Shown piece by piece: positions 4,294 through 26,006 of a stretch of 36,031 bases of DNA. Position 1 is the stretch's first letter; each line of letters starts with the position of its first letter. A model generated the notes under the pieces. That model was not told the DNA's origin, did not search any database, and was given only the letters and a program-made list of their open reading frames with translations. Source of the DNA: Miniimonas arenae (lineage in GTDB: Bacteria; Actinomycetota; Actinomycetes; Actinomycetales; Beutenbergiaceae); NCBI RefSeq assembly GCF_006351005.1, contig NZ_VENP01000034.1, forward strand, positions 1 to 36,031, given 5' to 3'. The translations under genes and the position numbers were made by a program.

Positions 4294-5151
4294 TCAGGCG
4301 AGCGACTCGAGGTAGGCCTTCGAGGTCCGGACGTCGACCTTGGGACCCTCGCCCGCGGGGGCGCCGTCGAGGATGGTGTCCTGCTCGAGGACGTACCAGC
4401 CGTCGAAGCCGGCCGCGCCGAGCGCCGAGACGATCCGCGGGAGGTCGACGTCGCCCTCGCCGAGCGGCACGTAGATGCCCTCGCGGACGGCCTCGGTGTA
4501 GGTGAGCTCGCCCGCGCGGACCTTCGCGGCGAGGTCGGCGCGGACGTCCTTGGCGTGCACGTGGTTCACGCGCGCGGCCCAGTCGTCGACGAGAGCCGCG
4601 GGGTCGGTGCCGCCGATGAGGAGGTGGCCGGTGTCGAGCGTGAGCGCGATCGAGGAGCCCTCGAGGACGCGGAGCACGTCGTCGCGCGTCTCGACCATCG
4701 TGCCGACGTGCGGGTGCAGCGATGCGCGGATGCCGCGTGAGGCGGCGAGCGCCGTGAGGCGGTCGAGGTTGCGGAAGACGGTGGCCCACTGCGCGTCGTC
4801 GAGCTCGGGGCGCTCGTCGTAGCCGTCGAGCCCCGACGCCGCCGCGAGGACCAGTACGTCGCCGCCGGCGGCCTCGAACGAGTCGAGCTCGGCGTCGACG
4901 GCGGGCAGGGGGTCGTGCTCGGGGTCGTGCAGCAGGACGGGGACGAACGCGCCGACGGCGGCGAGGCCGTAGGGCTTCAGGGCTGCGGCGCGGTCGGCGG
5001 GAGCCTCGGGCAGCCAGCCCTGCGGGCCGAACTCGGTGGCGGTAAGGCCGAGCTCGGTCATCTCCGCGAGAACCTGGTCGGGCTCGAGCTGGTAGCCCCA
5101 GCCCGGGACCTCGCACACGCCCCAGCTGATCGGGGCACCGGCAATCTTCAT
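4294..5151 (-). CDS. iolE: TIM-barrel inosose dehydratase-type protein (IolE-like)
   Basis: A 285-residue sugar isomerase/epimerase-fold protein beginning APISWGVCEVPGWGYQL, an opening common in actinobacterial proteins annotated as myo-inosose-2 dehydratase. Likely metal or catalytic residues fall in the expected strands: Glu154 (HPHVGTMVE), Asp173 (TLDTGH), His199 (NHVHAKD) and Glu256 (WYVLEQD). It would remove water from 2-keto-myo-inositol to give the trihydroxycyclohexanedione cleaved by IolD. The ATG is preceded by GAGAGAGA. It is the last gene of the operon, 211 bp after iolG, with repeats between. An IolH or other epimerase role cannot be excluded from sequence alone. Confidence 0.75.
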   Translation of the reverse strand: MKIAGAPISWGVCEVPGWGYQLEPDQVLAEMTELGLTATEFGPQGWLPEAPADRAAALKPYGLAAVGAFVPVLLHDPEHDPLPAVDAELDSFEAAGGDVLVLAAASGLDGYDERPELDDAQWATVFRNLDRLTALAASRGIRASLHPHVGTMVETRDDVLRVLEGSSIALTLDTGHLLIGGTDPAALVDDWAARVNHVHAKDVRADLAAKVRAGELTYTEAVREGIYVPLGEGDVDLPRIVSALGAAGFDGWYVLEQDTILDGAPAGEGPKVDVRTSKAYLESLA

Positions 5152-5236
5152 GGTCTCTCTCTCGTTGTCGTTCGGTGGTGGACCTGCATGTGAGGGGTGG
5201 AACTAGTGCCGTCGGACCTGCGTACCGCCACCCCGT

Positions 5237-5354
5237 TCGCGAGAGGATCTCCGTCCTTTCTCGAGAGGATCTCGGAGGCTCCGAGCCGACGGAGATCCTC
5301 TCGAGAAAGGACGAACTTCCTCTCGAGAAAGGACGAACTTCCTCTCGAGAAAGG
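5237..5354. repeat. nested inverted and 22-bp direct repeats between iolG and iolE
   Basis: A perfect 22-bp inverted repeat has arms 5252-5273 and 5292-5313, built around TCCTCTCGAGAAAGG. Inside it a smaller hairpin is possible (CTCGGA 5271-5276 with TCCGAG 5280-5285). The right arm runs into direct repeats with a 22-bp period starting at 5296, 5318 and 5340, each beginning TCCTCTCGAGAAAGG, and a partial copy lies near 5240. This takes up most of the 211-bp gap. It could terminate or protect iolG mRNA, bind a protein, or be one member of a dispersed repeat family; I see no second copy in the window. Confidence 0.85.
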
Positions 5355-5362
5355 GTTGGGGG

Positions 5363-6376
5363 TCAGGCGGAGACTGGCGCGCCGAGGCGCACCCGCTCGC
5401 CCGTCGTGGCCGAGACGGTCGCGGCGTCCGCGAGCACGAGCGCCTCGCGCCCGTCCCGCAGCGACGGGCTCGGCGCCACGCCCGACTCGATCGCCGTGAT
5501 GAAGTGGTCGAGCTCGGCGGAGTAGGCGTGCTCGTAGCGCTGGAGGAAGAAGTCCAGGTACGGGCCCGACGAGCCGGAGACCCCGCGCCCGTTGAACCGG
5601 ACCGCGGTGGCCGTGTGGTTGGCCGCCTCGAGCGAGCCGAGCGGACCGAACGCCTCGAGCCGCTGGTCGTAGCCCGCCGCGCAGTGCCGCGAGTTGATGA
5701 TCGTGGCGACCCCGCCGTTGGCGCCGCGCAGCGTGACGACGGCCGCGTCGAAGTCGCCGATCGCCGCGATGTCGGGGTCGAGGTGCTGCCCGACGGCGGA
5801 CACCTCGGTGATCTCCCCGAGCAGGAACCGCGCCATGTCGAAGTCGTGGATCGTCATGTCCCGGAAGATCCCGCCCGAGCCGACGAGGTACGGCGCGGGT
5901 GCCGCCGCCGGGTCGCGGCTGATGATGGTGAGCTGCTCGAGCGCGCCGATCTCGCCGTCGGCCACGCGCCGCGCGATCTCCGCGAACCCGGGGTCGAAGC
6001 GCCGGTTGAAGCCGACCATCACCCGGTCGGCGCGGTCGCCGACCGCGGCCAGGCACTCGTCGACCCGCGCGAGGTCGAGGTCGACCGGCTTCTCCGTGAG
6101 GACGGCCTTGCCGGCCTCGACGGCGGCCACGATCTGCGGGACGTGGAACCGGGTGGGCGAGCCGACGATGACGGCGTCCACGTCGGTGGCGGCGAAGACG
6201 TCGGCCACGTCGGTCGTGGACCGGACGCCCGACGAGCCGACCGAGCCGGCAATCCGGGCGGCGGCCTCGCCGTCGGGGTCGGCGACGAGCGCGAGGCGCG
6301 CCGCGGGGTGGGCGGCGACGGACCGCGCGTGCACGGCGCCGATGCGGCCGGCGCCGATGATCGCGAAGCTCAGCAT
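5363..6376 (-). CDS. iolG: myo-inositol 2-dehydrogenase
   Basis: A 337-residue Gfo/Idh/MocA-family NAD-dependent dehydrogenase that oxidises myo-inositol to 2-keto-myo-inositol, the first step of the pathway. The Rossmann motif GAGRIG is at residues 8-13, the EKP motif at 95-97 supplies Lys96, and RDMTIHDFD gives Asp173 and His177, matching the Lys/Asp/His set of characterised inositol dehydrogenases. Length is normal. The ATG at 6376 is chosen because the Rossmann strand starts immediately after it and GGAGA lies just upstream. It follows mmsA by 65 bp on the same strand. Confidence 0.92.
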   Translation of the reverse strand: MLSFAIIGAGRIGAVHARSVAAHPAARLALVADPDGEAAARIAGSVGSSGVRSTTDVADVFAATDVDAVIVGSPTRFHVPQIVAAVEAGKAVLTEKPVDLDLARVDECLAAVGDRADRVMVGFNRRFDPGFAEIARRVADGEIGALEQLTIISRDPAAAPAPYLVGSGGIFRDMTIHDFDMARFLLGEITEVSAVGQHLDPDIAAIGDFDAAVVTLRGANGGVATIINSRHCAAGYDQRLEAFGPLGSLEAANHTATAVRFNGRGVSGSSGPYLDFFLQRYEHAYSAELDHFITAIESGVAPSPSLRDGREALVLADAATVSATTGERVRLGAPVSA

Positions 6377-10004: not shown

Positions 10005-10993
10005 CTCGACTCCTTGACATCGGACGTGGGCTGGTGGGTGAGCCGCGGGTCGACCGGCTGGTCCGGCCACGTCGCGCGCACCCAGGCGAGCGCGGGGTCG
10101 TCGGTCGAGAGCCAGCGGCCGTCCGTGGCCGGGCCGGCCATGACGTTGAGGTAGTACAGGTCGAAGCCCGGCGGCGCGGTGCACGGGCCGTGGAAGCCGT
10201 GCGGCACGAGCGCGGTGTCGCCGGTGCGGACCTCGGCGAGCACGTCGATCGGGCGCTCGGGCGTCCCGTAGGTGCGGTGGTACCCGACGCCGGGCGTGCC
10301 GTCCGGACCGTCGGCGACCTCGAAGTAGTAGATCTCCTCGAGCTTGCGCTCGGCGGAGCCGTCGGCGTCGGAGTGCACGTCGTGCTTGTGCGGCGGGTAG
10401 GAGGACCAGTTCCCGCCCGGCGTGACGACCTCGCAGACGAGGAGGTGGTCGATCGCCACCTCGGTGTCGAGCGTGTAGTTCGTGACCCGACGGCTCGCGG
10501 CGCCCGCGCCGCGCAGGTCCACCCGCGCCGAGGCGGCCGGGAGGACCTGCAGCGGGAGCGCGCGGCTCGCGCGCGCCGTCGCGAGGGCGACCCGCACTGT
10601 TCTCGGCTCAGCCGGCGGCTCCTGGGTCGACTCGTGCTGCACTGACGCCCCCGGCGCCGCCGTCACCGTCACGACGGCCCCGAGCGGCAGGTACGCGACG
10701 TCCGTCGGCCCGGCGAACACCGACGCGCGGCCCGTCAGCGTGACGGTTCGGCTGCTGGTCCGGTCCACCTCCGCGGCGCTCGGGTCGGGGAGCTCGACGG
10801 CGAGCACCACCCCGCCGCGCAGCGGCACCACGAGCGCCTCGTCCCGATCCAGGGCCCACGTGACGCTCGGGGCGTCGGGGCCGAGCTCGACCACGCGCAG
10901 CCCGCTCCACGCCCAGCCCGCGGACTCGGGCGTGACGTCCACGACCTGCGGCCCGTCGCCGGCCCGCCGGACGTACCGGTCGGTGTCGTTCAT
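10001..10993 (-). CDS. iolB: 5-deoxy-glucuronate isomerase
   Basis: A 330-residue bicupin that isomerises 5-deoxy-glucuronate to 2-deoxy-5-keto-gluconate. The C-terminal cupin is well kept: CEVVTPGGNWSSYPPHKHD, with the metal-binding His pair near 202-204, and LEEIYYFE, with a likely Glu ligand about 15 residues later, then GFHGPCTAPPGFDLYYLNVM. The start codon follows GAGGTGAGG, a good ribosome binding site. It lies 71 bp after the aldolase gene and its stop overlaps iolD. Confidence 0.93.
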   Translation of the reverse strand: MNDTDRYVRRAGDGPQVVDVTPESAGWAWSGLRVVELGPDAPSVTWALDRDEALVVPLRGGVVLAVELPDPSAAEVDRTSSRTVTLTGRASVFAGPTDVAYLPLGAVVTVTAAPGASVQHESTQEPPAEPRTVRVALATARASRALPLQVLPAASARVDLRGAGAASRRVTNYTLDTEVAIDHLLVCEVVTPGGNWSSYPPHKHDVHSDADGSAERKLEEIYYFEVADGPDGTPGVGYHRTYGTPERPIDVLAEVRTGDTALVPHGFHGPCTAPPGFDLYYLNVMAGPATDGRWLSTDDPALAWVRATWPDQPVDPRLTHQPTSDVKESR

Positions 10994-11002
10994 CCTCACC
11001 TC

Positions 11003-11028
11003 GTCACTGATGGTGGTCACTGATGGTG
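11003..11028. repeat. two perfect 13-bp direct repeats upstream of iolB
   Basis: GTCACTGATGGTG occurs twice back to back in the 71-bp gap between the aldolase gene and iolB, just outside the iolB ribosome binding site. It may be a simple duplication; a regulatory role is not supported by anything else visible. Confidence 0.7.
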
Positions 11029-11064
11029 TTGCTGCTGGATCTGCCTGATGCCGCCGGTAGCTCG

Positions 11065-11952
11065 CTACAGCAGCGCGACGGTCGCGTCGACCGCGGCCGC
11101 CACGTCGCCGTCGGGCGGGTACAGCAGCGAGCGCCCGACGACGAGCCCGCGCACCCCGGGCAGCGCGAGCGCCGCCTGCCAGTCGGCCAGGGTGGCCTCC
11201 TGGTCCGCGCCGACCTCGCCGCCGAGGATGAGCGCGGGCAGCGTGGTCGCCGCCATCACGCGCTCCATCTCGGGCACGTAGGGCAGCTTGAGCCAGGTGT
11301 ACGCGGACGTGCTGCCGAGAGCCGACGCGATCGCGGTGGAGGTGCGCACGGCGTCGGTGCTGAGGTCGTTGCGCACCCGGCCGTCGACGCGGCGGGACAG
11401 GAACGGCTCGACCATCGCGATCCGCCGCTCGGCCGCGAGGGCGTCGACGGCGTCCGCGCACGCGTGCAGCGTGGCGAGGCTGCCCGGGTCGTCGAGGTCG
11501 AGCCGGAGCAGCATCTTGCCGCCGTCGAGGCCCGCCGCGAGGATGCCGGGCGCGTCGTAGCCCGTGAAGCGGTCGTCGAGCTCGAACGTCGCGCCGTGCA
11601 GGCCGCCGCGGTTCATCGAGCCGAGCACGAGCCGGCCGTCCAGGGCGCCAAGCGCGGCGAGGTCCTCGACGAGGTCGGCGGTGCCGAGGAACCCGTGCAC
11701 GCCGGGTCGGCCGAGCGCCACGACGATCCGGTCCAGCAGGTCGAGCCGGTCGGCCATCGCCATCGGGTCCCCGCCGGCGCCCAGGGCACCCCGGCCGGGG
11801 TGGTCGGCCGCGATGACGAGGAGCTTCTCGCCGTCGGGCACGCCCGCGAAGGGCCGGCGCTGGGTGAGCAGCGCGCGGAAGGCGCCCGGGTCGGCGAAGC
11901 GCAGGGCGGTGAGGTCGCGGGTGGACAGGTGCGTCCGGGGCGCGGCGGTCAT
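11065..11952 (-). CDS. Cgl0159-type (beta/alpha)8 aldolase of inositol catabolism
   Basis: A 295-residue TIM-barrel protein resembling the Cgl0159 family found in actinobacterial inositol clusters. Segments include KLLVIAADHPGRG at 43-55, GGKMLLRLDLDD at 144-155, and Lys222 in YTWLKLPYV, a candidate Schiff-base lysine. ILGGE (242-246) and VVGRSLLYP (271-279) look like the C-terminal phosphate-binding loops. By position it would replace IolJ and split 2-deoxy-5-keto-gluconate 6-phosphate into dihydroxyacetone phosphate and malonic semialdehyde; this function is inferred from family and context. Start and iolC stop overlap by ATGA. A VPDGE word at residues 38-42 carries one of the dispersed motif copies. 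Confidence 0.8.
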   Translation of the reverse strand: MTAAPRTHLSTRDLTALRFADPGAFRALLTQRRPFAGVPDGEKLLVIAADHPGRGALGAGGDPMAMADRLDLLDRIVVALGRPGVHGFLGTADLVEDLAALGALDGRLVLGSMNRGGLHGATFELDDRFTGYDAPGILAAGLDGGKMLLRLDLDDPGSLATLHACADAVDALAAERRIAMVEPFLSRRVDGRVRNDLSTDAVRTSTAIASALGSTSAYTWLKLPYVPEMERVMAATTLPALILGGEVGADQEATLADWQAALALPGVRGLVVGRSLLYPPDGDVAAAVDATVALL

Positions 11953-20020: not shown

Positions 20021-22738
20021 CTACCAGCCGTTGCCGAAGCAGACCAGGGCGGCCGCGGGCGATGCACCCGGGGGGCGTGCGCCGTCGGGGCCTGCGGACC
20101 GCGCGCCGGACGTCGCGCCCAGTGCGGCGAGGGCGTCGGCCGGCCCGATGCCGTCGGTGAGTGCCCGGTGCAGCGCGACGACGAGCTCGCCCGCGCTGTC
20201 CGGAACCCGTGCGGGCGCGGCGACCACGCAGCGCGCGCCCGCGTGCAGCCACGCGCGCGCCATCCCAACCGTCTCCTGACCCCACACCGCGGACGAGCGG
20301 CCGAGCTCGCACGAGGACAGCACGACGTAGCGGGGCACGTGCGCGAGCAGCTCGATGTCGTACCCGAACCACGGCCCGTCGACGAGCTCGAAGCCCGAGA
20401 ACAGCGGGTTGTCTGCGGTGTGCCGGCCGTGTGCGGCGATGTGCAGTACCTCGTGGCTGTCCGCGAGGGCGGTGACGGCGGCCGCAGTCGCGCCGTCACC
20501 GGTGAGCGTCTGCGCGACTGGCCAGACCGCGGCGCACGCCTCGACCTCGGCGGCCGCGTCCGCCAGGTTCGGGCCCGCCACGAGCCCCGCCGACGCGGGT
20601 GGGGCCAGCGAGCCGGCCGGCCCCCCAGCAGGACCGATACCAGCACTCACAGCAGCAGCACCAACACCAGCAGCACTAGCAGCCCCGGCACCGGCCTCGG
20701 CAGCACTGCCCGCAGCACCAACACCACCAACAACACCACCACCACCGTCAGCACCAGCACCGGCCCACACCCGCGCCCGCCGCAGCCAGTCCTCGAGCGT
20801 CTCGGGCACCGAGACCGCCACCGACTCCAGCCCGGGCATGAGGTTCCACGGCAGGCTCGACACCGCCGGCGGCGCCGTCACGACGAGCCGCCGCAGCCGC
20901 CCGCGCCCGCGCCCGAGCCCGCGCGAGCCGAGCCCGCGCCCGCGCGAGCCGGGCCCCCGCCCGAACGAGGCCCCCTCGAGCCCCAGCGGCGCGAGCAGCG
21001 CATCCGCTATGGTCGCGAGCCGCCGCCGCAGCGACGCCTGCACCGCGCCGGCCATCGCGGGCCGCAGACGTGCGGCGGCCATGTCGAGGTCGGCGAGCAG
21101 CGCGGAGACGTCCGCGGCGATCGGTGACCACGCCCCGAGCCGGACCAGGCGCGGCCCACCCGCGGCCGGGTCCAGCACCACGGCCGCGATCTCCTGGTCC
21201 GTGCGCAGGTAGGAGACGAGCACGGCCTCCTGCGCGGCGAGCGTTGCGGTCAGCCCCGCGACGTCGAGCCCGCCGCCGACCTGCGACGCCGGCCCCGACC
21301 AGGGCGAACGCTCGCGCCAGTCCGACCCCGGCGCCGCGAGCGGACGGTCGGTGGTCTCGCCGCGCCGCGCCGCCGCCAGGTCGAGCTCCGCCGACCGCTG
21401 CACGGGCGTGGCCCGCGAGACGAGGCCGCGCGTCAGCTCCGACCACGCGAGCACCGCCTCGGCGTCGCCGAGGGCCACCGCCGACGTCGTGCCCGTCACG
21501 AGAAGCCGGAGCCGGTGCACCGACATCGAGGTGCGCAGGTCGACGTCCTCGTACCGCTCCTGCCACGCCTTGACGAGGTCCATGCCCGCGCGCGCCCGAC
21601 GCAGCGCAGTGCGGTGGTGCCCGGCCGCCGCGGCCACCTCCGCGCTCACCTCCTGGTAGTGCGCGCGGTCCACCACGCTCTCGTTCGCGCGCGGCCTGGC
21701 CGTCGCGAGCCGCGCTCGCGCGCCCGCCACGTCACCCCCCCGCGCGAGCGCCGACGCCTGGTAGCGCGCCAGCTGGCGCGCCGAGTCGCGCAGACCGCCG
21801 GCGGCGAGCGCGTCGCGGACCTCGACGGCGTGCCGCAGCGCCGTACGCGTCGGCGGCCCGGACGGGCCGGCGGTCCCCGCCAGCTCGAGCCGCGCGATGG
21901 CCGCCTGCGCCCGCAGGTTCCCGACGGCGTCGCCCACCCGGGCGAACCGGCGCGCCGCCGCGCGGGCGTACGGAAGCGCACGCTCGACGTCGTACAACCG
22001 GTAGGTCTTCGCGATCGACAGCTCGGCCTCCGCCTGCTGCCGCCGCCAGCGGGCGCGGCCGTACGCCGTGGCCGCCCCCTCCAGCAGCCCCACCGCCTCG
22101 CGCGGCATCCCGGCGAAGAGGAGTAGCTCGGCGTGCGCGAGGTCGCACGTCGCCGCGAGCTCGGGGCCCAGCGGCGCGAGCACGGCGCGCGCCTCGGCCA
22201 TCTCGCGCTGCGCGCCGACCAGGTCCCCGCGCGCCAGGAGGACGAGCGCCGCGTTGTGCTGCGCCTTGGCCGCCCCGACGTCGTTGCCGGCCCGGCGGAA
22301 CGCGTCCGCGGCGCGGGAGAAGCACGCCTCGGCGAGCGCGAGGTCCTCGGACTCGTCCGCGAGCATGCCGCGGTTGAGCAGCACGTTGGCGAGGCGGCCG
22401 GGCTCGTGGTCGAGGCCGCGCGCGGCGACGTCGAGCATCGGCGCGGCCTCGGCGAAGTCGCCGAGGTGGATGAGGACGAGCCCCAGCTGGCCCGCGAGCA
22501 CCGCGGTGGTGCGCGAGGAGAGCCCCGGGGTGGCGAGTGCGTCGCGGCACAGCTGCGCCGCCGTCGCCGCCTCGCCTCGCGCGGCGAGCACGTAGGCACG
22601 CGTGCCGACGACGAGCGCAGCCTGGTCGACGTCGGGATCGCGCGCGGCCGCGAGGTCGAGCAGCCGCGACGCCGTGCCGAGTCGGCCGGCGTTCGCGTGC
22701 CCGACCGCGCGGTCCAGGAGCTCCTGGGTGCTCAGCAC
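20021..22738 (-). CDS. TPR-CHAT domain caspase-like protease
   Basis: A 905-residue protein. Residues 1 to about 430 are Ala-rich helical repeats of TPR type (ALVLLARGDLVGAQREMAEA, LARGGDVAGARARLATAR). The C-terminal CHAT domain contains LHIAAHG with His770 and VVLSSCELG with Cys810, the catalytic dyad of this caspase-like family. Two low-complexity inserts lie in or before it: an Arg/Gly run (594-616) and a Gly/Ala-rich loop (659-722). No signal peptide or membrane segment, so it is cytoplasmic. The GTG start is 1 nt after the stop of the protease gene, so the two are co-translated. TPR-CHAT proteins usually serve as sensors or executioners in proteolytic signalling; the trigger and substrate here are unknown. 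Confidence 0.88.
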   Translation of the reverse strand: MLSTQELLDRAVGHANAGRLGTASRLLDLAAARDPDVDQAALVVGTRAYVLAARGEAATAAQLCRDALATPGLSSRTTAVLAGQLGLVLIHLGDFAEAAPMLDVAARGLDHEPGRLANVLLNRGMLADESEDLALAEACFSRAADAFRRAGNDVGAAKAQHNAALVLLARGDLVGAQREMAEARAVLAPLGPELAATCDLAHAELLLFAGMPREAVGLLEGAATAYGRARWRRQQAEAELSIAKTYRLYDVERALPYARAAARRFARVGDAVGNLRAQAAIARLELAGTAGPSGPPTRTALRHAVEVRDALAAGGLRDSARQLARYQASALARGGDVAGARARLATARPRANESVVDRAHYQEVSAEVAAAAGHHRTALRRARAGMDLVKAWQERYEDVDLRTSMSVHRLRLLVTGTTSAVALGDAEAVLAWSELTRGLVSRATPVQRSAELDLAAARRGETTDRPLAAPGSDWRERSPWSGPASQVGGGLDVAGLTATLAAQEAVLVSYLRTDQEIAAVVLDPAAGGPRLVRLGAWSPIAADVSALLADLDMAAARLRPAMAGAVQASLRRRLATIADALLAPLGLEGASFGRGPGSRGRGLGSRGLGRGRGRLRRLVVTAPPAVSSLPWNLMPGLESVAVSVPETLEDWLRRARVWAGAGADGGGGVVGGVGAAGSAAEAGAGAASAAGVGAAAVSAGIGPAGGPAGSLAPPASAGLVAGPNLADAAAEVEACAAVWPVAQTLTGDGATAAAVTALADSHEVLHIAAHGRHTADNPLFSGFELVDGPWFGYDIELLAHVPRYVVLSSCELGRSSAVWGQETVGMARAWLHAGARCVVAAPARVPDSAGELVVALHRALTDGIGPADALAALGATSGARSAGPDGARPPGASPAAALVCFGNGW

Positions 22739-22739
22739 G

Positions 22740-24497
22740 CTAGGCGTCGCCCCGATCCACACCCGGGTCCGCCTCGGGCCCCGGGCACAGCCCCTCCTCG
22801 CAGTCGGCGGGGTCGTGCATGAGGTGCCCCTGCAGGTTCGCCCACACCTTGGCGGCGCGCTCGGTGCCGAAGCCGGCGTCCCACGCCTCGGGCGCATCGT
22901 CGAACGCCCGCACCAGGCGCGCCGCGAGGTGCGGCGCGGCGAACGAGGTCCCGCTCCAGATCGCGAAGTGACCGCGGTAGTCGTCGGGGTCGAGGGTTTC
23001 GCGGTGCCGTCCCTTGACCACGCCGCCGCAGTCGTCCTCCTCGTCGACCCGCGCCACCGGCTCGAGCCCGCCGCGGAACGGCGGTGTCGCGCTCACCATC
23101 GCCGCCCCGGTCATCCACGTGGTGACCCAGTGGCCGAAGTTGGAGAACAGCGCGAGCGTGCCGTTAGGGTTGCGCGCGCCGACGGAGAACCACGGCGCGC
23201 CCGGCGCGGGGTCCTTGGCGAAGCGCGCAGGGGACAGCTCGCGGTTGGTCGACTCGTTGCCCGCCGACATCACCACGACGACCCCGGCGCGGGAGAACGC
23301 CTCGATCGCCGGCCGCATCAGCAGGTCGACCGTGCCGTCGTCGTCCCAGGGGCGCTCGTGGTAGTACCCGAGAGACAGGGACAGGACGTCGACGGCGTAG
23401 GTCCCGTTCTCGATCTCGACGGCGAGCGTGTGCAGCGCGTCGTACAGGTCGCTCTCCGCGACCGCGCCGTCGCCCGCGACGACGCGCCAGGACAGGATGT
23501 CCGCGCGCGGTGCGACCTGCCGCACGATTCCCGCGATGAAGGTGCCGTGGCCGGCGACGGAGTCGAGCACGCCGTCGAACGGCTCGTACTGCCCGGGATC
23601 CGCCTCCGCAGAGAGCGTGCCGATGGTGAGCGGCGTGATGTCCTTGACGCCGGTGCGCAGCCACGGGTGGTCGCCCACGCCGGAGTCCACGATCGCGACG
23701 ACGGGGCGGCGCCCGCGCTTCGGGTCCGGGCCGCGCGAGGGTCGCGGGAGCACGACGGCGACCGGCGAGCGTCCGCCGGTTCCCGGCAGCACGTAGCTGT
23801 CGGCGGGGGAGGCCAGGCCGTTCGTGCCGTAGAAGCCCTTGGGGTTGGTGCCGTAGAAGCCGAGGCCGTTGGTCCCGTAGAACCCCTTCGGATTGGCCGA
23901 GAAGGAGCCGGTCGGTCCGGTCGCGGGTGCCGACGGCACGGGCGTGGTGAGGAAGACGGCGTGGTCGAGCGCGAGGCGTGGAAGGTCGGCGTCCGCGCGG
24001 GCCGAGGCGTCGCCACCCACCTCAACGTCCGGCTGGCCCCCGTTGCCGAGGTCCCCGGTGTCCACGTCCCTGGTGTCCAGGCCCCGACGGCGCCGGTCCC
24101 GCACGCGTGGGTCGGGCTCGCGCTCGCTGCGGACGGCCTCGACGAGGGTGAAGGCGTCGGGCGTCGTGATCCCTGCGATGCCCGGCAGCGGGACGATCTT
24201 CAGCCGCGTGACCACCTCCTCCCCGCCCTGCTCACCGTCGTTCGGCGGGATGACGACCCGGCCGCCGTCGCCGAACGAGCGGTCGACCTCGAGGAACCAG
24301 CCCAGCGGCTCGACGCGCGCGTTGAGCGCGTCGCGATACCGCTCCGCGTCCGCGCCGATGAGGAGCACCCGGTCCGCGGCGTACACCGTGGGCAGGGCGC
24401 GACCGGTCCGCGCCTGGGCGGGGTCCAGCACGGCCCACGGCACGCTCGGCCGGAGCGGCTCGTCGCCCGGCTTCTCGTCGGGCTTCTCGTCAGGCAT
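22740..24497 (-). CDS. cytoplasmic subtilisin-like serine protease (S8)
   Basis: A 585-residue S8 protease with the full triad: Asp271 (VAIVDSGVG), His317 (GHGTFIAGIV) and Ser518 (SGTSFAAPH), plus oxyanion Asn414 (SAGNES). It has no signal peptide, unusual for subtilases, so it acts inside the cell. Residues 1-190 form an N-terminal region of unknown fold with a charged linker (124-170). Just before the protease domain lies a repeat of FYGTN (206-210, 214-218, 222-226) in a Gly/Asn/Lys setting, a possible autoprocessing or recognition segment. The start follows GGAAGGAA. It is adjacent to and co-transcribed with the CHAT gene; one protease activating the other is an attractive inference. Confidence 0.88.
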   Translation of the reverse strand: MPDEKPDEKPGDEPLRPSVPWAVLDPAQARTGRALPTVYAADRVLLIGADAERYRDALNARVEPLGWFLEVDRSFGDGGRVVIPPNDGEQGGEEVVTRLKIVPLPGIAGITTPDAFTLVEAVRSEREPDPRVRDRRRRGLDTRDVDTGDLGNGGQPDVEVGGDASARADADLPRLALDHAVFLTTPVPSAPATGPTGSFSANPKGFYGTNGLGFYGTNPKGFYGTNGLASPADSYVLPGTGGRSPVAVVLPRPSRGPDPKRGRRPVVAIVDSGVGDHPWLRTGVKDITPLTIGTLSAEADPGQYEPFDGVLDSVAGHGTFIAGIVRQVAPRADILSWRVVAGDGAVAESDLYDALHTLAVEIENGTYAVDVLSLSLGYYHERPWDDDGTVDLLMRPAIEAFSRAGVVVVMSAGNESTNRELSPARFAKDPAPGAPWFSVGARNPNGTLALFSNFGHWVTTWMTGAAMVSATPPFRGGLEPVARVDEEDDCGGVVKGRHRETLDPDDYRGHFAIWSGTSFAAPHLAARLVRAFDDAPEAWDAGFGTERAAKVWANLQGHLMHDPADCEEGLCPGPEADPGVDRGDA

Positions 24498-24559
24498 ATC
24501 GGTTCCTTCCGGAGGGCGGAGGGCGCACAGAGCGGGGCGGAACGACGGGGTTCACTCTG

Positions 24560-24585
24560 GCACGACGGCGAGCACACCGTCGTGC
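24560..24585. terminator. intra-operon hairpin, possible attenuator
   Basis: A perfect 9-bp stem (GCACGACGG / CCGTCGTGC, loop 8 nt) lies in the 141-bp gap between the regulator-like gene and the S8 protease gene. Three CACCAGAG words follow at 24594, 24608 and 24617. The hairpin could uncouple expression of the sigma/regulator pair from the proteases. No T-run. Confidence 0.4.
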
Positions 24586-24638
24586 GTCCGGCTCACCAGA
24601 GAGAGATCACCAGAGCCACCAGAGGTCAGCCGTCACGT

Positions 24639-25133
24639 TCAGACGGAGAAGGCCGGCGTCTCGTGGCGCAGGCCGCCCTCGAGGTCGAAGCGCAGGAGCG
24701 CGATGCCGGCCGGCACGTCGTGCAGCGCGAACCGGCCGTCGGCATCCACCGAGGCCGTGGCGAGCGGGACCTGCGGCCGACCGCCCCGGGCGGGCTCGCC
24801 GTCGGGCACCACGAGGCGCACGGTGCCGGCCGCGGCGGGGGCGACCCAGCCGTCGATCCGGCCGGGCGCGATCCGCAGCATGACGTCCAGCCCGCGGCCG
24901 GTGAACTCGATGACCGTGAGCTCGGCTCCCGCGGCGCGCACCCCGAGAGCCTGCGCGTCCGCCTCGGCGACGAGCGTGAGCAGCGCGTACTCGGTCTCGA
25001 GGTCCTCGGCGGCGCGGGCGGCCTCCACGACGGCGGCCATCTCGCGGTCGAGGCCCTCGGGCATCGGATCGAGGTCCTGCCACATCAGGGCCAGCCGGGC
25101 GAACAGCGCCTCGTCGCTCTCGTACGTGGTCAT
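24639..25133 (-). CDS. 164-aa regulator-like protein paired with the sigma factor
   Basis: The N-terminal half is acidic and helical (LDPMPEGLDREMAAVVEAAR, EDLETEYALLTLVAE), with the layout of proteins that often accompany sigma factors of CHAT operons. A middle segment reads LTVIEFTGRGLDVMLRIAPG and IDGWVAP. The C-terminal 50 residues (ATASVDADGRFALHDVPAG) look like a carboxypeptidase-regulatory beta fold. No zinc-finger HXXXCXXC anti-sigma motif and no membrane segment are present, so an anti-sigma role is only suggested by context. VPDGE near residue 110 carries a dispersed-word copy at 24796-24809. The start overlaps the sigma-factor stop (ATGA). Confidence 0.6.
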   Translation of the reverse strand: MTTYESDEALFARLALMWQDLDPMPEGLDREMAAVVEAARAAEDLETEYALLTLVAEADAQALGVRAAGAELTVIEFTGRGLDVMLRIAPGRIDGWVAPAAAGTVRLVVPDGEPARGGRPQVPLATASVDADGRFALHDVPAGIALLRFDLEGGLRHETPAFSV

Positions 25134-25762
25134 GCGACACCTCCCTGGGTGGAACCGGCGCCGGCCTCGAGGGCGGCGCGGAGCTTGGTGAGACAGCGGG
25201 CGCGGGTCGGCCCGATGCTGCCGACCGGCATGCCGAGGTGCTCCGACAGCGCGGCGTAGTCGGGTCGGTCGGAGAACGCGACGACGCGGAGCAGCCGCTG
25301 GCAGCGCTCCGGCAGGGAAGCGACGGCGGACCACAGCGAGCGGTGGTCCTCGCGCTGGGCGGCGAGGTCCTCGGCGGCCTCGCTCGCGGGCAGGACGGCG
25401 TCCCACGCCGCGTCGTCGGCGGGGACTGCCGTGCGGGCCAGGTCGGCCTCGCGGCGCAGCCGCCACGACTCCCTCCGGGTGCTCGTGACCAGCCATGACC
25501 CGACGGCGCGGGGGTTCTCGATCTCCGCCCGACGGCGGACCAGCGCCACCCACACGTCCTGGATGACGTCACGCGCGGTGTCCTCGTCGAGGCGGCACGC
25601 GCGGGCCACGTGCCACAGCACGGGGGTCATGAGGCGCACGAGCTCGTCGGCGCTCGCCGTCCCGTCGCGCCATGCGGTGAACGCGCCGGCGGCCTGCTCC
25701 CAGACGGAGGGCGGGTGGCCGCTCGGCGCGCGCTCGTCGCCCACGGTCGACATTGTCGTCAT
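25130..25762 (-). CDS. ECF-like RNA polymerase sigma factor
   Basis: A 210-residue sigma-70 family protein. Region 2 is visible as MTPVLWHVARACRLDEDTAR followed by DVIQDVWVALVRR; region 4 as SLPERCQRLLRVVAFSD, then DYAALSEHLGMPVGSIGPTR, the -35-binding helix-turn-helix. There is no region 1 or 3, as in ECF factors. Start choice is weak: ATG at 25762 or 25753, or a GTG further upstream; no strong ribosome binding site is seen. It is the first gene of the operon and probably drives its own unit or a stress regulon. Confidence 0.85.
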   Translation of the reverse strand: MTTMSTVGDERAPSGHPPSVWEQAAGAFTAWRDGTASADELVRLMTPVLWHVARACRLDEDTARDVIQDVWVALVRRRAEIENPRAVGSWLVTSTRRESWRLRREADLARTAVPADDAAWDAVLPASEAAEDLAAQREDHRSLWSAVASLPERCQRLLRVVAFSDRPDYAALSEHLGMPVGSIGPTRARCLTKLRAALEAGAGSTQGGVA

Positions 25763-26006
25763 GGTAGTGGTGAGGGCGCCAGGCCTTTCCTGATACACGG
25801 CCCTCTCGGCGCACGCCCTCGCGGCGCCGCCTTCTCGGCGTCCGCCCTCCCGCCCGGCGCAGATGCGTGCTGCGCGGTGAGCGAACGCCCGCCCGACCCC
25901 GCCTCGATGAACCACGTCCGCCCTCGCGTCGGTAATACACTCACCAAGTCGCCCGACCCGAGGCGACGGCGCCAGTCGCCACACTTGACGAAGCCGCGAG
26001 GTCCCC
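25763..26006. promoter_or_regulatory. divergent promoter region of the sigma and ATP-grasp operons
   Basis: This 244-bp gap separates divergent start codons. TAATAC at 25933-25938 is the only AT-rich hexamer and could be a -10 for the rightward operon; TTGACG at 25986 is too close to the ATG to be a useful -35. I see no convincing inverted repeats or an obvious sigma-specific site for the leftward operon. Confidence 0.3.

Follow-up and report, generated by a model that had tools for sequence, protein, structure and literature searches.

A stretch of 36,031 nucleotides from Miniimonas arenae (contig NZ_VENP01000034.1, positions 1 to 36,031; hereafter the window) carries on its minus strand four genes, which encode an ECF-type sigma factor (SIG), a 164-aa protein (REG), a cytoplasmic pro-subtilisin of family S8 (S8) and a TPR-CHAT protease (CHAT). 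The most informative features of this locus are an array of three GFYGTN peptides in the linker of S8 and a promoter-like motif before SIG. Both were absent from an earlier sequence-only reading, which had claimed the four genes and, as found here, placed them correctly. The locus is tentatively proposed to be a cytoplasmic, protease-gated, autoregulated switch that controls a group 54-like ECF sigma factor. The gene neighbourhood is already in print as ECF54; the array and the promoter motif, with its recurrence after CHAT in related loci, are new here. The features, with the basis of each in brackets, are as follows.

25772..25797, minus strand: promoter-like TGTATCA-N16-CTC upstream of SIG, with 10 nt from CTC to ATG (motif)
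25130..25762, minus strand: SIG, ECF-type sigma factor, 210 aa, ATG at 25762 (family-model matches)
24639..25133, minus strand: REG, 164 aa, an Ig-like beta-sandwich with two helices at the N-terminus (predicted structure)
22740..24497, minus strand: S8, cytoplasmic pro-subtilisin, 585 aa (Pfam match and fold matches)
24168..24392, minus strand: prodomain-like part of S8, residues ~36-110 (structure model)
23820..23885, minus strand: peptide array of the S8 linker, GFYGTN x3, at 23868-23885, 23844-23861 and 23820-23837 (sequence)
22878..23714, minus strand: S8 catalytic domain, residues ~262-540, with Asp271, His317 and Ser518 (Pfam and alignment)
20021..22738, minus strand: TPR-CHAT protease, 905 aa, GTG start at 22738, with His766, His770 and Cys810 (Pfam and alignment)

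The overlap or 1-nt gap that had been reported at two of the junctions was found at SIG-REG, where the REG ATG and the SIG stop share a 4-nt overlap, and at S8-CHAT, where 1 nt separates the S8 stop from the CHAT start; the gap between REG and S8 is 141 nt. Genes here and below were called with a simple gene finder of our own, and many loci stop at contig ends.

A peptide array in the linker of the subtilase

Between its prodomain and its catalytic domain, S8 contains repeated copies of one short peptide. The array was followed, via amino-acid similarity, through 101 loci, namely the window, its 20 best relatives and the best 80 of at least 446 relatives from a scan of named genomes. It is tandem in 93 of them (89 scored and four, L119, L155, L158 and L180, plain by eye) and spaced in eight, with PYTIPH-like copies in L040-L044 and STP[LM]P in L049, L050 and L052. 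Seven further S8 proteins (L232-L238), six of them from four genomes outside the class of the window, all carry tandem arrays, and five distant ones (L053-L057) have no array.

The usual unit is P-[FY]-x-x-[TS]-[NH]; outside the window the units include PFIETN, PYWDPV, PYTQPH, GYGDGV, NPFTRT, NPLHDS, NPVWDG, PFMS, GYMGT, PVGGKTN and ATGNPY, the last in 12 copies. Of 52 distinct units, 43 are hexamers; P is present in 42 of these hexamers and F or Y in 35, followed by two variable places, then T, S or G in 39 of them and N or H in 38. The variation of unit length from 4 to 8 residues argues against a rigid solenoid. Copies are alike inside one protein and different between lineages, and within one genus whole arrays shift together (PFIETN, PFIATN, PLIETN). 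In two loci (L239, 2240-13402; L240, 5896-17402), two adjacent S8-CHAT pairs with a single SIG bear differing arrays (P[LM]YDGH and PFTSGG), so that the array belongs to the S8-CHAT pair and not to the genome. The unit was sought in REG, SIG or CHAT of the same system and was found in 1 of 89 systems at 4 residues (shuffled mean 2.3) and in none of 89 at 5. Subtilisins prefer substrates of the AAPF type, and P-[FY] fits this P2-P1 preference. The array is probably where S8 processes itself, where the TPR domain docks, or both.

Selection on the array and its possible readers

Differing codon pairs between copies of one protein were synonymous in 1279 cases and not in 65, while 23% of random single-base changes there would be synonymous; this count keeps units at least 60% like the consensus, a filter that hides changes. 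Without the filter, and leaving out the 12 of 101 loci that lack a high-scoring array, codon pairs for the same residue differ in 1582 of 4360 cases (36.3%) versus the 37.9% expected if codons were drawn independently from local usage. Since synonymous codons are randomised while the peptide is identical, the peptide itself is under selection. As judged from the codons, the copies are either ancient or held apart at the DNA level while staying the same as peptides; those of the window are 75-83% alike as DNA. Presumably something reads a short repeated peptide that differs by lineage and is so strictly selected at the amino-acid level.

Candidate readers were sought by covariation in 67 complete systems, in which array distance was compared with the distance of each protein region after the trend of the other regions was removed; phylogeny is taken out only roughly. 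The highest partial correlations were found for TPR part 1 (+0.26), the S8 catalytic domain (+0.22), S8 after the linker (+0.20) and TPR part 2 (+0.19), values reached by 0, 0, 1 and 3 of 300 permutations, respectively. Weaker values were obtained for the REG helices (+0.12), the S8 prodomain (+0.08), the CHAT middle (+0.06) and S8 before the linker (-0.03), and more negative ones for the REG sandwich (-0.09), SIG (-0.17) and the CHAT protease (-0.22), the last equalled or exceeded in 300 of 300 permutations. With windows of 30 columns, the top value fell in the TPR part (+0.46), and S8 reached up to +0.36 (979 of 2211 pairs). Among the top 50 single columns, S8 is the sole enriched region, with 31 (13.9 expected); the others are TPR with 16 (15.0), CHAT middle 2 (6.5), REG 1 (5.3), SIG 0 (4.3) and CHAT protease 0 (5.1). 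Window-level and column-level covariation thus disagree on the TPR part. The divergence of the array points at S8 itself, perhaps also at the TPR domain, as the reader, and away from the CHAT active site, which gives a handle on the circuit.

The sequence-only reading had suggested a cascade in which one protease activates the other. In its fuller form, CHAT would cut the array, remove the prodomain and activate S8; repeated sites would make an efficient switch, and their sequence would follow CHAT specificity. CHAT and S8, always intact, lie side by side and the array sits exactly between prodomain and catalytic domain, as such a cascade would have it, but array divergence is untracked by the CHAT protease domain in both the partial correlation and the single columns, and this cascade is considered unlikely.

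Alternatively, S8 could cut the array into identical peptides of 4-8 residues, which the TPR domain of the CHAT protein would bind, switching CHAT on. Several identical copies, the variable unit length, a lineage-specific code, the pairs of differing arrays that adjoin each other in L239 and L240, and the top window-level value in the TPR part all agree with a peptide messenger, whereas the TPR part is not enriched in single columns, some S8 windows also reach high values, and in eight loci the copies are spaced rather than tandem; on balance this is rather improbable. An extended version, in which the messenger is stored in the very protease that releases it by cutting at P-[FY], the code drifts with its TPR reader and keeps neighbouring circuits apart, and the freed sigma factor induces a small RNA or a protease inhibitor, is likewise given little probability.

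A promoter-like motif before SIG and after CHAT

The sequence GTATCA was found upstream of SIG in 76 of 96 loci, commonly continued by CTCCT or CTC 16 nt on, which suggests that SIG drives its own operon from TGTATCA-N16-CTC. The sequence-only reading had the sigma factor setting expression, and the motif lends this support. Two standard ECF promoter patterns were also tried before SIG and rejected (4 of 94, shuffles 2.9; 6 of 94, shuffles 9.4).

Across 19 array-bearing genomes, TGTATCA-N16-CTC has 42 matches (17 for the reversed control). Nine of these genomes (G059, G100, G103, G119, G127, G137, G141, G156 and G174) contain one match at SIG and a second less than 10 kb away on the same strand, and the seven second sites inspected all lie just after CHAT. 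The motif follows CHAT in 54 of the 90 loci having at least 400 nt there, most commonly 18 nt past the stop, against a background of 0.026 per 500 nt. As far as a motif can tell, this suggests that in many lineages SIG drives a further transcript directly downstream of CHAT that would serve as output or feedback.

What follows this second site differs among lineages. In Microbacterium-type loci the motif is followed by a G-rich RNA that has UGGGGA loops and ends in a hairpin. When 17 of the 22 listed sequences were scored against a structure taken from their own alignment, pairing held in 93.6% of cells (88.0 when shuffled, 34-54 when slid), and both sides had changed in 46 cells (14.4 when shuffled, 0/500). 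The small open reading frames (ORFs) in seven Microbacterium-type loci are dissimilar, two having a partial ribosome-binding site, and Rfam at the gathering score gave no match for the downstream RNA in eight loci and none in the window.

In Nocardioides, the motif precedes a gene for a small protein in L119, L130, L144, L168 (by eye) and L177. The next gene after CHAT in L182, a locus in which no motif was found after CHAT, lies 63 nt on (10661-11089, plus strand) and matches Inhibitor_I42, the chagasin family, at 6.5e-8; it could possibly be a brake on a cysteine protease. A profile of five Nocardioides proteins (L119, L144 and L177, together with L132 and L137, which lack the motif) matches the L182 protein at 2e-11 as a single target. 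Pfam assigns none of the small proteins to I42, and by profile they resemble a chagasin-type inhibitor. In L034, an extra 432-aa S8 (4713-6011, minus strand) follows the motif past CHAT by eye, so that SIG may drive a further subtilase there, and in L145 a response-regulator-like protein does so, also by eye.

In the genome of the window nothing follows CHAT. Its second motif site is on another contig (C114; L282:1501 onward, plus strand), just after a tRNA gene, and is followed by G-rich DNA with GCAGGGGG repeats and a strong hairpin and no called gene for 324 nt; no likeness of this DNA to the Microbacterium RNA has been shown.

The two proteases

Pfam matches above cut-off were obtained for Peptidase_S8 (9.7e-22) and CHAT (3.5e-18), and TPR_12 in the CHAT protein came below it (1.7e-6, 28.6 bits, cut-off 30.1). 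All 67 complete systems retain the S8 catalytic residues Asp271, His317, Asn414 and Ser518. For CHAT, His766 is kept in all 67 and His770 and Cys810 in 66, the missing case (L171) being truncated by a contig end; the alignment used a CHAT version 8 residues longer, in which these are His774, His778 and Cys818. The Asp/His/Ser triad and His/Cys dyad that had been called intact in the window are therefore intact throughout, and the claimed lack of a signal peptide is borne out by eye, the S8 N-terminus being charged.

The structure model of S8 has a mean pLDDT of 60, falling below 50 in the linker. Its first 15 fold matches are PCSK9, pro-subtilisins and a lanthipeptide protease (Z 19-22, rmsd 4.4-4.9), which cover model residues 34-43 to 563-585, and S8 thus models as a pro-subtilisin with prodomain, linker and catalytic domain bearing an intact triad. 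CHAT has no sequence match to any PDB chain at E 0.01. A second CHAT domain was observed elsewhere in the genome of the window, in a 1796-aa open frame on contig C93 (L001/L060); the surrounding 19.7 kb contain no called relative of the window S8, CHAT or REG.

SIG, REG and the proposed switch

SIG matches the NCBIfam model sigma70-ECF at 3.7e-16, over the cut-off, and Pfam Sigma70_r2 at 1.9e-6. REG, scanned as its exact frame, has no Pfam or NCBIfam match over cut-off, its weak matches below it being CnrY (0.044) and CarboxypepD_reg (0.11). Its structure model (pLDDT 80.8, pTM 0.56) shows an Ig-like sandwich with two N-terminal helices, and the best fold match is CrdA (Z 8.4, rmsd 4.5, 93 residues), a common sandwich. 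REG is proposed to be an anti-sigma factor and a protease substrate.

In the switch tentatively proposed above, REG would hold SIG at rest, and the peptide array would tether the prodomain to S8, which would be a zymogen. Cell stress would allow S8 to cut inside its own array and so mature; the array or the mature S8 would then engage the TPR domain of the CHAT protease, and one of the two proteases would cut REG and free SIG. SIG would subsequently turn on its own operon and, in many lineages, the downstream RNA or protein.

Several results weigh against this proposal. REG is without a significant match to any anti-sigma family, and the PDB gave no informative match for it by sequence (best E 0.036) or fold. 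Two REG genes stand beside one SIG in L239, and three in L240, a surplus that exceeds the need of a simple REG-SIG pair. The TPR part stays at expectation by single columns, with only S8 enriched. Furthermore, no motif lies within 500 nt after CHAT in the genome of the window or in L036-L057.

A different account is that the proteases degrade SIG itself with no anti-sigma factor, REG being an adaptor or substrate carrier. Such degradation is proposed for ECF54 in the relevant passages of PMC8999054, and it would agree with the missing anti-sigma matches of REG; against it, REG was found in all 20 best relatives and in 78 of the 80 named loci, often overlapping SIG as a partner would. This account is held to be of low probability.

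Conservation and gene neighbourhood

Conservation of the four-gene order, a check that the sequence-only reading had named, was largely found. The S8 query matched 31 of 99 genomes, its own included, at E 1e-3. Among the loci of the 20 best relatives, REG, S8 and CHAT are present in all and a called SIG in 19, which are complete; in L035, CHAT lies ~4 kb off, past opposite-strand genes. The seven weaker S8 loci comprise two with all four genes (L053, L057), one with S8, CHAT and SIG (L056), two with S8 and CHAT and two with S8 alone. In the best 80 of the at least 446 named loci, profiles of our own found REG in 78, SIG in 73 and CHAT in 71, mostly in the order SIG-REG-S8-CHAT, with hosts including Microbacterium, Nocardioides, Cellulomonas, Klenkia, Rhodococcus and Phytohabitans. 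An alternative order, S8-SIG-REG-CHAT, was seen in L040-L044 and L046-L048, and S8 is on the opposite strand in L053. Over the phylum, at least 8 of 396 genomes, the own one included, reach 1e-40, a lower bound as three candidates were scored per genome.

An anti-phage role, which had been suggested earlier, is not favoured by the neighbourhoods. Named by eye, the neighbours resemble ribosomal protein genes and rpoB in L045, L049, L050, L052 and L053, and obg and proB in L036-L039, so that several loci appear fixed beside housekeeping-looking genes. PADLOC matched S8 alone, and weakly (subtilase 5.6e-7, IetS 7.6e-4), with no match for CHAT, SIG or REG, the last scanned as an over-long frame. 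In favour of a defence module are the action of TPR-CHAT proteases in type III-E CRISPR (PMC10028731), the patchy presence over the phylum, and a phage-collection record (MT838002, 12-977; 7.5 kb, Bacteriophage sp.) encoding an S8 catalytic domain 36.8% identical to that of the window (E 4e-38), a match that begins so near the record end that it leaves no readable linker. The mobile collections yielded one plasmid-labelled record (11.85 Mb) and 13 phage records, with the S8 domain partly covered. Given the stable loci and the weak matches, defence is rated very improbable.

Relation to known systems

According to the corresponding part of a 2022 review (PMC8999054), ECF54 sigma genes are surrounded by genes for a carboxypeptidase, a subtilase and CHAT, and regulation by proteolysis, with no anti-sigma factor involved, is proposed there. 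The present loci likewise have adjoining genes for an ECF sigma factor, a subtilase and CHAT, a likeness judged by gene neighbourhood and the sigma70-ECF match. The 'carboxypeptidase' of that description is taken to be REG, whose CarboxypepD_reg match lies below cut-off. In contrast, the ECF54 passages of the review mention no array, promoter motif or downstream RNA and dispense with an anti-sigma factor, while REG is here proposed as one. No description of array, motif or downstream RNA was found by title or opening of the abstract, though the primary sources for ECF54 (Huang 2015; Casas-Pastor 2021) may contain them. The link of a caspase-like and a subtilisin-like protease to a single sigma factor is thus already published but, as far as seen, not explained.

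In craspase, the TPR-CHAT protease Csx29 cuts the sigma inhibitor Csx30 and relieves CASP-sigma, according to the account in PMC10028731. In both systems a TPR-CHAT protease with a His/Cys dyad and an ECF-like sigma factor occupy one locus with a possible inhibitor between them, and the present loci add a subtilase with an array. By analogy, the circuit would work like the Csx29-Csx30-CASP-sigma output, and if the parallel holds, actinobacteria would possess a CRISPR-free version of the CHAT-sigma output that is known from CRISPR systems. Membership in craspase is not claimed because REG matched no Csx30 by PDB sequence search or in the fold-match lists, CHAT matched no solved chain at 0.01, and cas genes were not searched for. 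Loci with a caspase domain (EACC2), ECF sigma and TPR genes, described in a 2021 paper (PMC8195603), similarly unite a caspase-like protease, an ECF sigma factor and a TPR protein in one neighbourhood; the domains named in the relevant text are EACC2, TRADD-N and DUF1822 TPR, with no subtilase.

With pro-subtilisins and PCSK9, S8 shares the prodomain followed by a catalytic domain with an intact triad, and it differs by a long disordered linker with identical short peptides and by having no signal peptide. The RRNPP receptors are TPR proteins that bind short peptides, and the combination of a TPR protein with a short lineage-specific peptide recalls them; here the peptide is inside a protease, has no export signal, and the TPR is fused to a protease domain. 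For the circuit as a whole, the promoter motif predicts a regulon, and the downstream RNA or inhibitor-like protein would be a measurable output.

Copies of the array peptide elsewhere and other repeats

GFYGTN occurs once elsewhere in the 3.4 Mb genome of the window (reversed control 0), in an acidic 45-aa ORF on contig C1 (L065:9062-9199, minus strand). Its context, KGFYGTNG, is identical over eight residues to two of the three S8 copies. The ORF has a coding-like base composition and, by eye, a preceding ribosome-binding site; no relative was found in 23 other family genomes at E <0.07. A neighbouring MoxR gene appears incidental, as four relatives have MoxR and a pattern search gave no motif frame near it. 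A trans partner of the array was rejected as a general feature, since searches of 22 further array-bearing genomes, each with the motif of that genome, showed nothing similar (G004, G008, four of g6, 11 of G059's genus, three of g8, G417 and G427). G156 and G121 have one extra exact copy each, one lying in a 694-codon frame and the other in a short frame without a preceding start codon; other extra matches differ from the unit of their own genome or sit in genomes without a detected array, and G000 has a single match to the motif of another genome. On sequence grounds, the copy in the 45-aa ORF stays the single striking case.

Two further sets of repeats were observed in the window. At 5288-5354, between two minus-strand genes, a 22-23 nt repeat with a CTTCCTCTCGAGAAAGG core occurs three times and looks like operator sites. 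At 1-335, direct repeats occur four times with 96-nt spacing at the contig end.

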